DNA from: Candidatus Nitrososphaera gargensis Ga9.2
Lineage (GTDB): Archaea; Thermoproteota; Nitrososphaeria; Nitrososphaerales; Nitrososphaeraceae
Assembly (NCBI RefSeq): GCF_000303155.1
Contig: NC_018719.1
Coordinates: 1,612,001-1,676,000 of the forward strand
Direction: 5' to 3'
DNA: 64,000 bases
In this document: positions 6,753 through 14,737 of the stretch, piece after piece
Numbering within the stretch: the stretch's first letter is position 1
How the letters are laid out: every line of letters begins with the position of its first letter
The notes under the pieces: model-generated
Seen by the model: the letters and a program-made list of their open reading frames with translations, nothing else
What the model was told of the DNA's origin: nothing
The model's database searches: none
Position numbers and translations under genes: made by a program

Positions 6753-7388
6753 ATGAAGAAGAACAGGCAGAAGATTGTTTTCAAGTGCACTGGCGACGCG
6801 GTGGCAAGGTGTGCGTCTGTGATCAAGAGTGGTGGAGTGGTAGTGTTCCCAACAGATACCATCTACGGCATCGGCTGCGACCCTTACAACGACCGTGCAG
6901 TCAAGCGGATATTTGCGATAAAAGGCAGGGATGAAAAAAAGCCGCTCCCGGTTCTTGCACACAGCATGTCAGATGCAGAGAAAATAGTGTCGCTTGGCAA
7001 GGCCGGCAGAACCCTTGCAAAAAAATACTGGCCCGGCGCCCTTACAATAGTTGCCCCGATTACTGACAGCAGGATATCTCGTAGAGTCACCGCAGGAAGT
7101 GGCAGCCTTGCCGTGCGCGTCCCGGCAAACAAATGCGTCCTGTCGCTCCTTGAGCAATGTAAGTACCTTGTGGGCACGAGCGCAAACCCATCTGGCGGCA
7201 GGCCGCTAAAGAGCGCGCAGGAAGTACTCGAATCGCCACTTCATGGCTATGACGCACTGATGGACGGAGGCCTGGTTGAAAGGGGAATCGAATCCACCAT
7301 AGTCGACGTTACGGGCAGCAGTCCTAAGATCCTGCGCGAGGGAGCGATAAGGTCAAGTGAGGTCCTGGAGGCCCTTGGCGAACTTTAA
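6753..7388 (+). CDS. L-threonylcarbamoyladenylate synthase (Sua5/YrdC/TsaC family)
   Basis: Makes threonylcarbamoyl-AMP from threonine, bicarbonate and ATP, the first step of the universal t6A37 modification of ANN-decoding tRNAs. The YrdC fold is clear: GGVVVFPTDTIYGIGCDP (residues 27-44), the K-x-R motif in AIKGRDEKKPLPV, SLAVRVP, and the SxN motif in VGTSANPSGG. At 211 residues it is the short form without the extra Sua5 C-terminal domain. KEOPS, which uses its product, includes Cgi121, and a Cgi121-like gene lies about 1 kb downstream on the other strand. Confidence 0.93.
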   Translation: MKKNRQKIVFKCTGDAVARCASVIKSGGVVVFPTDTIYGIGCDPYNDRAVKRIFAIKGRDEKKPLPVLAHSMSDAEKIVSLGKAGRTLAKKYWPGALTIVAPITDSRISRRVTAGSGSLAVRVPANKCVLSLLEQCKYLVGTSANPSGGRPLKSAQEVLESPLHGYDALMDGGLVERGIESTIVDVTGSSPKILREGAIRSSEVLEALGEL

Positions 7389-7899
7389 CCTCATAGTCTC
7401 TACATCCCGGTTCAGTGAGGAAGAGGCGCAGGACGAAATTCTGGATCTGCTTGACATGTTTGGCGACCCGGATGCAGAGTCTGAGATCACAGAAATCAAA
7501 GGACTCTTGCTTGCGCAGACCGCGCTCGATCCATTTGAAGTCATTGAAAAACTAAAAGAATTGATAGCTTCAGAGCCGTGGGAGGTGCGCTACATCCTGC
7601 GTGTTCTTCCGGTGGAGCGAGTCGTTCCCACTGAGCTTGACGCGATCAGGCAGGCGGCAAGAGATCTGGCAGTAGCCAAGATAGGCAATAATGAAAGTTT
7701 CAGGATAACCGTCGAAAAGAGGCACAGTGCGCTAGAATCGATAGAGGTGATAAAGGCGATCGCAGGCGAGATCGAAAGCAAGGTGGATCTTGAAAACCCC
7801 AGCTGGATCGTCCTTGTCGAGATAATCGGAGGCGAGGCAGGCCTGTCGGTGCTCAGGCCCGAACAGATTTTCAGCTCTGTTATCGAAAAGCGCAAGTGA
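7357..7899 (+). CDS. THUMP-domain RNA-binding protein (TAN1-like)
   Basis: The protein begins NFNLIVSTSRFSEEEAQDE and later has ITVEKRHSAL...EIIGGEAGLSVLRPEQIFS, the start and end of a stand-alone THUMP domain like that of yeast Tan1. Tan1 helps place N4-acetylcytidine in tRNA; archaeal relatives are presumed tRNA-binding adaptors. The frame opens with GTG at 7357, inside the end of the Sua5 gene. A TTG at 7375 gives a start closer to the domain boundary (MANFNLIVSTSR). Both starts overlap Sua5, so the two are probably coupled and form a tRNA-modification pair. Confidence 0.8.
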   Translation: MRSWRPLANFNLIVSTSRFSEEEAQDEILDLLDMFGDPDAESEITEIKGLLLAQTALDPFEVIEKLKELIASEPWEVRYILRVLPVERVVPTELDAIRQAARDLAVAKIGNNESFRITVEKRHSALESIEVIKAIAGEIESKVDLENPSWIVLVEIIGGEAGLSVLRPEQIFSSVIEKRK

Positions 7900-8320: not shown

Positions 8321-9091
8321 TTATTTTACAAGTATGGCTGCCCTTTCGAGAAGGTACTGCAGGAATTCATGATCGTCAAATTTTGCTTTCAGCTCGAGCA
8401 TGCCAGTAAGCAGGTCCCTCTTTTGCCTGCTTGGCTCCAACACCGAGTCGTCAACCTCAAATCTGTTCTTTATGCTTTCAGAAAAGTGGCGAAGCTCTTC
8501 ATTTTCCTGTGAAATAGCAATAAGGCAGCCTGCAGATCCATTTTTCAAACCTGCTTTTTTCATGGCGTCAGAGATCTGGTCCGTGCGCGCAAGCCTCAGC
8601 AGAAGCTCTGTTTCGCGCCTGTTTGCAAGCATCACTTTTCTTTTCTCGGCTTCAAGCGTTACCCTCAGCACTCCAAGCAGGTGATCAATGCCATAGACTG
8701 CGTCTGCGTTTACGGCCTGTATCGACACGCCAGGGTGTTCTGAGCGCAGCCTGTCCACGAGTTTCCCGGCATCCTCTGTGATCCTGCGGATTCCAATGAT
8801 CGACACGCGGTGGTTGCTATCGATCATGTAGTAGTCCGTGCCGCCATGGACTACGGTAACAATGGTTACTGTGTCGCCGCTCTTTGCCACTGTGCCCTGC
8901 CCCTGCAGCGCTGCCGAATCGACGCCGTTCACCGCTACTATCAGGTTGTTTGGTTGCAAAAGGCGTGCGTCAGTTGAAATGCCTGTCAAAAACTGGAGAA
9001 TTTCCGCGACAGACGCGCTCTGCCTGTCAAGGTCGACTGCGGGCTTGCCTACTGCCTTTTTGGCTCCCCCGAGCAGCCTTATAGTTATCAT
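8321..9091 (-). CDS. ThiS/MoaD/ubiquitin-like domain fused to KEOPS subunit Cgi121
   Basis: Two domains are visible in 256 residues. Residues 1-84 form a beta-grasp domain: MITIRLLGGAKKAVG, VAEILQFL, NLIVAVNG, then SGDTVTIVTVVHGG, ending in Gly83-Gly84 as in ThiS, MoaD and archaeal SAMP modifiers. Residues from about 92 to 256 match Cgi121/TPRKB, the KEOPS subunit that binds tRNA for t6A synthesis: IIGIRRI, IQAVNADAVYGIDHLLG, then RETELLLRLARTDQISDAM. The start ATG overlaps the S17e stop by 4 bases, so it is translated right after a ribosomal protein. Whether the Gly-Gly is cleaved, conjugated or only structural cannot be read here. Confidence 0.8.
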   Translation of the reverse strand: MITIRLLGGAKKAVGKPAVDLDRQSASVAEILQFLTGISTDARLLQPNNLIVAVNGVDSAALQGQGTVAKSGDTVTIVTVVHGGTDYYMIDSNHRVSIIGIRRITEDAGKLVDRLRSEHPGVSIQAVNADAVYGIDHLLGVLRVTLEAEKRKVMLANRRETELLLRLARTDQISDAMKKAGLKNGSAGCLIAISQENEELRHFSESIKNRFEVDDSVLEPSRQKRDLLTGMLELKAKFDDHEFLQYLLERAAILVK

Positions 9092-9339
9092 TCTTCCGCT
9101 TCTTCTTCTGACTCTTGCTCTTCTTCAGTTTCCCCGGCAGCGGCTGCCATCGAAGCCTTTGCCTGCGCCTCCTGCTTGCGCAAGTGAGCGGTGATGTATC
9201 CTGCCAGCTCGTTCCTCAGCACTTTAGACCTGACAACTGCCAGATCGTTGAGAGCCTTCTTATTAGCATCAAACTCTAGCCCAAACCTGTCTGGGTACTT
9301 TTGCAAGAGCTCCGTAGAGATGCGCTTTATCCTATTCAT
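9088..9339 (-). CDS. rps17e: Small ribosomal subunit protein eS17 (S17e)
   Basis: A component of the archaeal and eukaryotic 30S/40S subunit, absent from bacteria. MNRIKRISTELLQKYPDRF and the later SKVLRNELAGYITAHLRK are the family core. The 83-residue length fits archaeal S17e with an unusually acidic, Ala/Glu-rich C-terminal tail of about 20 residues. Its stop codon overlaps the start of the Cgi121 fusion (ATGA), so both come from one mRNA. Confidence 0.93.
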   Translation of the reverse strand: MNRIKRISTELLQKYPDRFGLEFDANKKALNDLAVVRSKVLRNELAGYITAHLRKQEAQAKASMAAAAGETEEEQESEEEAEE

Positions 9340-14323: not shown

Positions 14324-14737
14324 TTGCTAGTGTTCAAAAAGCGGGAGAAGGTGCAGAGGCACGTCATCATCACAAGGCAGGCGGCAGACGGCATAATTAC
14401 ATGGTCCAAGACGCACCACCCAAACGAGGCGATACTCATCCTGCAGGGCCGGAATACAAGGGACGCAGTGATTGTTGACGGGCTTGTGATCCCGCCCTTT
14501 GCTCAAAGCGGCCCGTTTTTCTCAGGGTTTTCGGTGCATGACCTGCCATATACGATACCCAACGTCGGCACGGCGCACTCGCACCCTGGCGGCTCGAACA
14601 GACCGTCGCTTGAGGACCTCAACCACTTTTCCGGCTATGTGTCCATAATCATCAGCCACCCTTATGAAGACGAGAATATAGGGGCATACGACAGAAGCGG
14701 CAACAGCTTGGAAATCAAGATCGTCGATTCAGTATGA
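14324..14737 (+). CDS. JAMM/MPN+ metalloprotease
   Basis: JAMM enzymes cleave isopeptide or peptide bonds after ubiquitin-like modifiers; archaeal ones remove SAMPs. The complete zinc site is visible: E35 in NEAILIL, H85-S-H87-P, and S95-L-E-D98 in PSLED, fitting the H-x-H-x(10)-D pattern. At 137 residues it is a minimal domain. The start is TTG 14324 or GTG 14330. A zinc-ribbon gene converges 2 bases after its stop. Its presence is relevant because a Gly-Gly-ending ubiquitin-like domain is encoded at 8321-9091. Confidence 0.85.
   Translation: MLVFKKREKVQRHVIITRQAADGIITWSKTHHPNEAILILQGRNTRDAVIVDGLVIPPFAQSGPFFSGFSVHDLPYTIPNVGTAHSHPGGSNRPSLEDLNHFSGYVSIIISHPYEDENIGAYDRSGNSLEIKIVDSV

Follow-up and report, generated by a model that had tools for sequence, protein, structure and literature searches.

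A ubiquitin-like protein (Ubl) of the Urm1 type is probably made in Candidatus Nitrososphaera gargensis as a precursor joined to Cgi121, and would be cut after Gly84 by a JAMM metalloprotease, probably JAMM1; we infer both the cut and the protease. This reading is favored by the retention of a His-Gly-Gly (HGG) motif at the end of the Ubl, by repeated switching between a stop codon and a fusion at this point, by a second fusion partner in other genomes, by the lack of a free Ubl in fused genomes and by the presence of an E1 enzyme. The gene lies in a stretch of 64,000 nucleotides (NC_018719.1, positions 1,612,001 to 1,676,000 of the forward strand), which is called the window here.

Neither the fusion architecture nor its linkage to the gene for ribosomal protein S17e is new, both having been known since 2010. 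That work reported the Ubl-Cgi121 fusion from all thaumarchaeal genomes then available, noted its linkage to S17 in Nitrosopumilus maritimus, and proposed either regulation of KEOPS by sampylation or a joint function; in the sections consulted, no discussion of cleavage at the Gly-Gly was found (Makarova and Koonin, 2010; PMC2948915). Among the papers searched, there was no later treatment of the fusion. What is new here is comparative evidence on the role of the Gly-Gly. In contrast to the 2010 picture, the larger number of genomes reveals that the fusion is not universal, and that the Ubl and Cgi121 are encoded separately in many relatives, the break falling exactly after the HGG.

The Fusion Gene and its Neighborhood

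The genes for S17e and the fusion overlap by 4 nt, the TGA of the former running into the ATG of the latter (Table 1). A sequence-only reading of this DNA had correctly described a gene overlapping the S17e stop, but two small corrections are needed: the strand, which is minus, and the span it gave (8321-9339), which mixes the two genes. Its division of the protein, the first 84 residues being a beta-grasp domain ending in HGG and the remainder Cgi121, was borne out. It had also named a profile search for the beta-grasp domain as a test of itself, and the domain was found: the ThiS family of Pfam (PF02597) matches residues 5-84 of the whole protein above its cut-off (E 2.4e-7) and matches the Ubl domain alone with E 5.6e-8, the Urm1 profiles being weaker. 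The CGI-121 family (PF08617) matches residues 107-218, also above its cut-off (E 5e-9), and the NCBIfam Cgi121 model (NF011465) matches above its own cut-off with E 3.5e-23. This single PF08617 match makes the fusion the sole Cgi121 detected in the window's genome (G000). An AlphaFold2 model, built from a shallow alignment, has two confident domains with a mean pLDDT of 84.7, and pLDDT falls below 50 only in residues 81-86 (VHGGTD). In Foldseek comparisons, the Cgi121 fold matches 7kjt (E 1.5e-10) and the KEOPS complex 8unk (E 3.2e-10), and the beta-grasp fold matches Urm1, SAMP1 and MoaD with E values of 2e-4 to 6e-4 (2k9x, E 2e-4). The fusion is not a product of chance, because the architecture recurs in many genomes; an assembly artefact is ruled out as its source, since single-contig genomes are among those that have it.

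Table 1. Positions of the features discussed, in window numbering.
Feature	Position	Strand	Evidence or remark
S17e gene (83 aa)	9088..9339	-	PF00833 E 2.1e-14; S17e-Ubl adjacency kept across the order
Ubl-Cgi121 fusion gene, 256 aa + stop, ATG start	8321..9091	-	ORF, Pfam, NCBIfam
Urm1/SAMP/ThiS-type beta-grasp domain, residues 1-84	8840..9091	-	PF02597, Foldseek
His82-Gly83-Gly84; predicted cut after Gly84, between 8840 and 8839	8840..8848	-	Equals C-terminus of unfused orthologues
Residues 81-86 (VHGGTD), low-confidence segment	8834..8851	-	AlphaFold2 pLDDT
Variable linker, ~14 residues (13-24 in relatives)	8798..8839	-	Alignment of relatives
Cgi121 domain	8324..8797	-	NF011465 E 3.5e-23
AfJAMM-type JAMM metalloprotease, second-choice candidate for processing protease	14324..14737	+	PF14464 E 1.5e-9
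Sua5/YrdC, opposite-strand neighbor of the fusion	6753..7388	+	PF01300 E 4.8e-55

Near the fusion, positions 6753-7899 of the plus strand hold the Sua5/YrdC gene followed by an overlapping gene for a THUMP-domain protein. Sua5/YrdC catalyses the first step of t6A synthesis, a pathway to which KEOPS also belongs; Cgi121 is the KEOPS subunit that recruits tRNA for t6A, and a member of its family would be expected to bind Bud32 and the CCA end of tRNA. With these two genes beside the Cgi121 fusion, this is a neighborhood of t6A and tRNA modification.

Relation to Urm1

To which class does the Ubl belong? The window protein scores below the cut-offs of the Urm1 models (14.1 bits against 21.8 for PF09138; 16.7 against 70 for NF053661), and thus it is called Urm1-like here rather than Urm1; several of its orthologues pass PF09138. 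In Sulfolobales-like genomes (L190-L192), S17e is followed by a free Urm1 ending in NHGG, which matches NF053661 with E 1.5e-28 as compared with 0.0061 for the window protein. The HGG ending and the S17e neighborhood are shared by the two. The sequence-only reading had spoken of a SAMP-like unit; Urm1-like is the better label in view of the Urm1 profiles, the HGG and an S17e linkage like that of the Sulfolobales-like loci. Urm1 of S. acidocaldarius and S. islandicus likewise resembles the window Ubl in its HGG C-terminus, its Urm1/ThiS profile matches and its S17e neighbor, whereas Urm1 of Sulfolobales is free-standing and the window Ubl is fused to Cgi121 and has lower profile scores. In S. 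islandicus, 330 proteins are modified by Urm1, and His precedes the Gly-Gly in nearly all Urm1 homologues (PMC12625751).

A small ORF lies downstream of Urm1 and overlaps it in the Sulfolobales-like genomes (L190:2953-3351 and matching ORFs in L191 and L192). It has no match in Pfam, that to Cgi121 included; in one hhalign comparison with the Cgi121 profile, it gave a probability of 87% over 30 columns (P 4e-6). As far as this similarity goes, it may be a divergent Cgi121.

Conservation of the HGG Motif

A total of 151 genomes of the order were searched, and the loci were fetched and compared. The order S17e-Ubl-Cgi121 recurs in most of the 17 families seen; in genus g2 of the window's own family, Cgi121 has been relocated and S17e-Ubl stays together. 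The HGG ends the Ubl, fused or unfused, in 105 of 106 rows, among which two pairs of rows are from the same genome. An alignment of 32 diverse Ubls has four invariant columns, three of which are the H, G and G. Loss of the Gly-Gly from relatives that keep the fusion had been proposed as evidence against release, and 38 of the 39 Ubl-Cgi121 fusions turn out to retain the HGG. The sole fusion without it (L073:880-1605 of G015, reading LSTLHCSA) comes from an 82% complete metagenome-assembled genome, in which the JAMM1 profile gives no match.

In 44 of the 59 non-fused rows, the stop codon is the very next codon after the HGG, and most of the others have a short tail such as GGCL, GGDT, GGSPKPA, GGGTAF or GGMVGV. 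Thus, a stop codon makes the Gly-Gly a free C-terminus in most unfused orthologues; in the fusion, this would need cleavage. Because relatives place a stop codon at the same Gly-Gly where others read on into Cgi121, it is most likely, as judged from the sequences, that the fusion is cut there to free the modifier. As a stop codon after the HGG stands in for the cut in these relatives, stop codon and protease look interchangeable as means of exposing the Gly-Gly.

In the 32 genomes of the fused family f9, the two Gly residues are invariant and each is encoded by all four codons (counts of 13/7/7/5 and 16/8/7/1), and the 13 positions after the HGG have an entropy of 1.6-3.2 bits. The six Nitrososphaera fusions have the same pattern, a constant HGG followed by varying residues. 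As the codons of both Gly residues differ only by silent changes among these 32 genomes, the Gly-Gly inside the fusion is under selection. An HGG that stays constant whatever comes after it is expected of a tail that needs to be released, not of a mere linker. The linker of the fused family is partly conserved as [AS]-S-K-[KR].

One large family is fused almost throughout (32 of 33 genomes). A quick tree built from Ubl plus Cgi121, with some long branches, has at least seven changes of the fusion state, several of them within the window's own genus, and the HGG stayed. In two genomes, the Ubl with its HGG is fused to a phosphoribosyltransferase instead (L080:2802-3635 in G011 and L194:3404-4324 in G216, both between S17e and Cgi121), the Pfam match to this domain having been run on L080 only. 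A separate observation is an ORF of about 260-280 aa between S17e and the Ubl in several distant families (L088, L087, L063 and L080), with the motif VLDGxHR, which presumably resembles ParB-fold serine kinases. Internal restart of translation to make Cgi121 alone was also considered and set aside, since the Ubl tail would not be freed by it in any case; in the translations, a Met soon after the HGG is found in some Nitrososphaera fusions and is not regular in the large fused family.

Other Genes of the Proposed Modifier Pathway

Do fused genomes have another source of a free modifier? A PF02597 search of fused genomes gave no free-standing ThiS-family protein: each genome searched has at most two such domains, one in the Ubl-Cgi121 fusion and the other in a Ubl-E1 fusion. 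An Urm1 search of these genomes gave no further convincing gene, and the idea of a separate free Urm1 or ThiS elsewhere in them was dropped. Nearly all fused genomes searched encode an E1, and every one encodes an NcsA/TtuA-like PP-loop ATPase. No E1 match was obtained in G076 and G131; a gap in the assembly is the likely cause for G076, because its single Ubl match compares with two in G138, a related genome assembled as one contig.

In the Ubl-E1 fusion of the window's genome (L150:3897-5222; G000:2826396-2827721), a MoaD-like Ubl is joined to E1 with an internal AGG at the junction, and the C-terminal part has a weak TBP-like match. The Ubl-E1 fusion genes of family f8 (L036, L037 and L039) also have an internal AGG and lie near a JAMM gene; their sequence suggests a rhodanese-like C-terminus.

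Candidate Proteases

Which protease would make the cut? Two JAMM proteins are encoded in the window's genome, one in the window and the other at genome position 1462130-1462513. The former is a complete JAMM, as the sequence-only reading had it, with the full HxHPx6SxxD motif; it matches AfJAMM (1oi0/1r5x, E 1.9e-14). The latter matches PfJAMM1 (5lda, E 3.8e-17) and fits the desampylase model with E 2.1e-16 as against 8e-5 for the window JAMM. Judged by these matches, it is the orthologue of PfJAMM1 and a nearer relative of the SAMP-cleaving desampylases than the window JAMM, and it is the likeliest processing protease. The window JAMM, initially the prime candidate, was dropped in its favor after typing against PDB and NCBIfam. 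The earlier proposal of release at Gly84 by a JAMM thus survives in part: release is the better-supported reading, with the HGG kept in nearly all fusions, but the AfJAMM-type protein named for it is probably the wrong one. That the window JAMM does the processing after all is quite improbable. It has the complete catalytic motif, its gene is some 5 kb away from the fusion, and a counterpart in a sister genome (L109) shares a short contig with the fusion, a few kb apart; however, PfJAMM1 and the desampylase model are fitted far better by the JAMM1 orthologue, it is JAMM1 and not the AfJAMM type that adjoins S17e-Ubl in a tail-bearing clade, and AfJAMM-type proteins occur also where only a bare HGG is found.

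Counting strong matches to the JAMM1 profile only, 50 of 51 genomes with a fused or tailed Ubl have JAMM1, as compared with 26 of 49 with a bare HGG (Fisher p = 4e-8). This figure is confounded by ancestry: with ancestry controlled, only two supported independent pairs are left (sign test p = 1), and co-occurrence was dropped as proof. G055 has a tailed Ubl and no match to the JAMM1 profile. In one small clade, JAMM1 adjoins S17e-Ubl divergently in four records, all of them tail-bearing (L034, L035/G119 and G110), with the tails GGDT, GGDK and GGSPKPA. The JAMM1 genes beside S17e-Ubl are at L034:6524-6943, L035:6509-6952, L042:2257-2700 and L043:236-676.

Proposed Processing Pathway and Alternatives

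An outline of the proposed process is as follows: initially, the polyprotein would be translated together with S17e, a coupling suggested by the observed gene order and overlap. The cut after Gly84 would come next, made by one of the JAMM metalloproteases, with the JAMM1 orthologue as the most likely one. The freed Ubl with its HGG would be adenylated by E1 and then carry sulfur for tRNA thiolation, modify proteins or do both, which is drawn from the biology of Urm1 and from the encoded E1 and NcsA/TtuA-like ATPase. The freed Cgi121 would join KEOPS and recruit tRNA for t6A, as is known for its family. Several observations count against this precursor: JAMM1 is found in many genomes with a bare HGG as well, G015 has a fusion lacking the HGG and G055 a tail lacking JAMM1, two genomes have no E1 match, and the conserved linker residues would not be needed by a pure spacer.

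The main rival, and the weaker of the two, holds that the fusion stays uncut; an added binding surface had also been named as an alternative in the sequence-only reading. In that case, the Ubl would be a permanent cis-acting domain of Cgi121, either an additional surface for binding tRNA or a partner or a mimic of constitutively urmylated Cgi121, with the HGG kept for a non-covalent E1-like or tRNA-thiolation partner. A role in cis in tRNA modification is plausible for a tRNA-recruiting Cgi121 with Sua5 as a neighbor, and the near fixation of the fusion in one family, some conservation of the linker and the fused genome without the HGG point the same way. However, an HGG that is invariant and followed at once by variable residues, a junction predicted to be flexible, repeated toggling between stop and fusion, an unrelated second partner after the same HGG and the lack of any other free Ubl in fused genomes all argue against it, and this alternative is considered unlikely. 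Cleavage might also be partial and regulated, the uncut form being functional with the modifier parked on KEOPS, so that release couples the supply of Urm1 to tRNA modification or to the status of translation. The linkage to S17e and Cgi121 is conserved across the order, and a partly cut fusion is known from mycobacteria, where cleavage of MoaX is incomplete (PMC4326299); but simple complete processing accounts for the same data and no sign of regulation was seen here, which makes this alternative very doubtful, more so than either processing by the window JAMM or a fusion left uncut.

A Proposed Precursor Logic in Archaea

Precursors of the kind proposed here, in which an Urm1-like Ubl would be cut from Cgi121 after Gly84, have relatives in other pathways. 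MoaX of Mycobacterium tuberculosis is cut after Gly82 (PMC4326299), and JAMM proteins cut MoaD-MoaE and linear SAMP1 fusions (PMC8832034). Like the window protein, MoaX and MoaD-MoaE have a beta-grasp carrier ending in Gly-Gly on the N-terminal side of a partner; unlike it, they belong to the molybdenum-cofactor pathway, have MoaE as the partner and are demonstrably cleaved, whereas the partner in the window is a KEOPS subunit and its cleavage is predicted. The Caldiarchaeum ubiquitin precursor is cut by CsRpn11 (PMC6043591), and in it, as in eukaryotic fusions of ubiquitin to ribosomal proteins, a protease exposes the Gly-Gly, as proposed for the window precursor. The eukaryotic fusions and the window locus are both associated with a ribosomal protein; however, S17e is a separate overlapping gene outside the fusion, and the modifier is of the Urm1/SAMP class rather than ubiquitin.

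A wider reading, which we hold tentatively and at somewhat less than even chances, spans the ammonia-oxidising archaea and the Sulfolobales-like S17e-Urm1 loci with what may be a divergent Cgi121. S17e-Urm1-Cgi121 may be an ancient module in which a ribosomal protein and a KEOPS subunit are supplied along with the modifier and in which a stop codon and JAMM1 are interchangeable. It would then parallel, in archaea, the fusions of ubiquitin to ribosomal proteins and would couple the supply of the modifier to tRNA modification.

If the fusion is indeed cut, the ammonia-oxidising archaea that have it would obtain their Urm1-type modifier solely from a precursor in which it is attached to the tRNA-modification machinery, and a single transcript would link ubiquitin-like chemistry with tRNA modification and the synthesis of ribosomes. 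Archaea would then offer an example of the precursor logic familiar from ubiquitin. This also bears on why archaeal Urm1-like genes adjoin S17e and on which JAMM serves which modifier.
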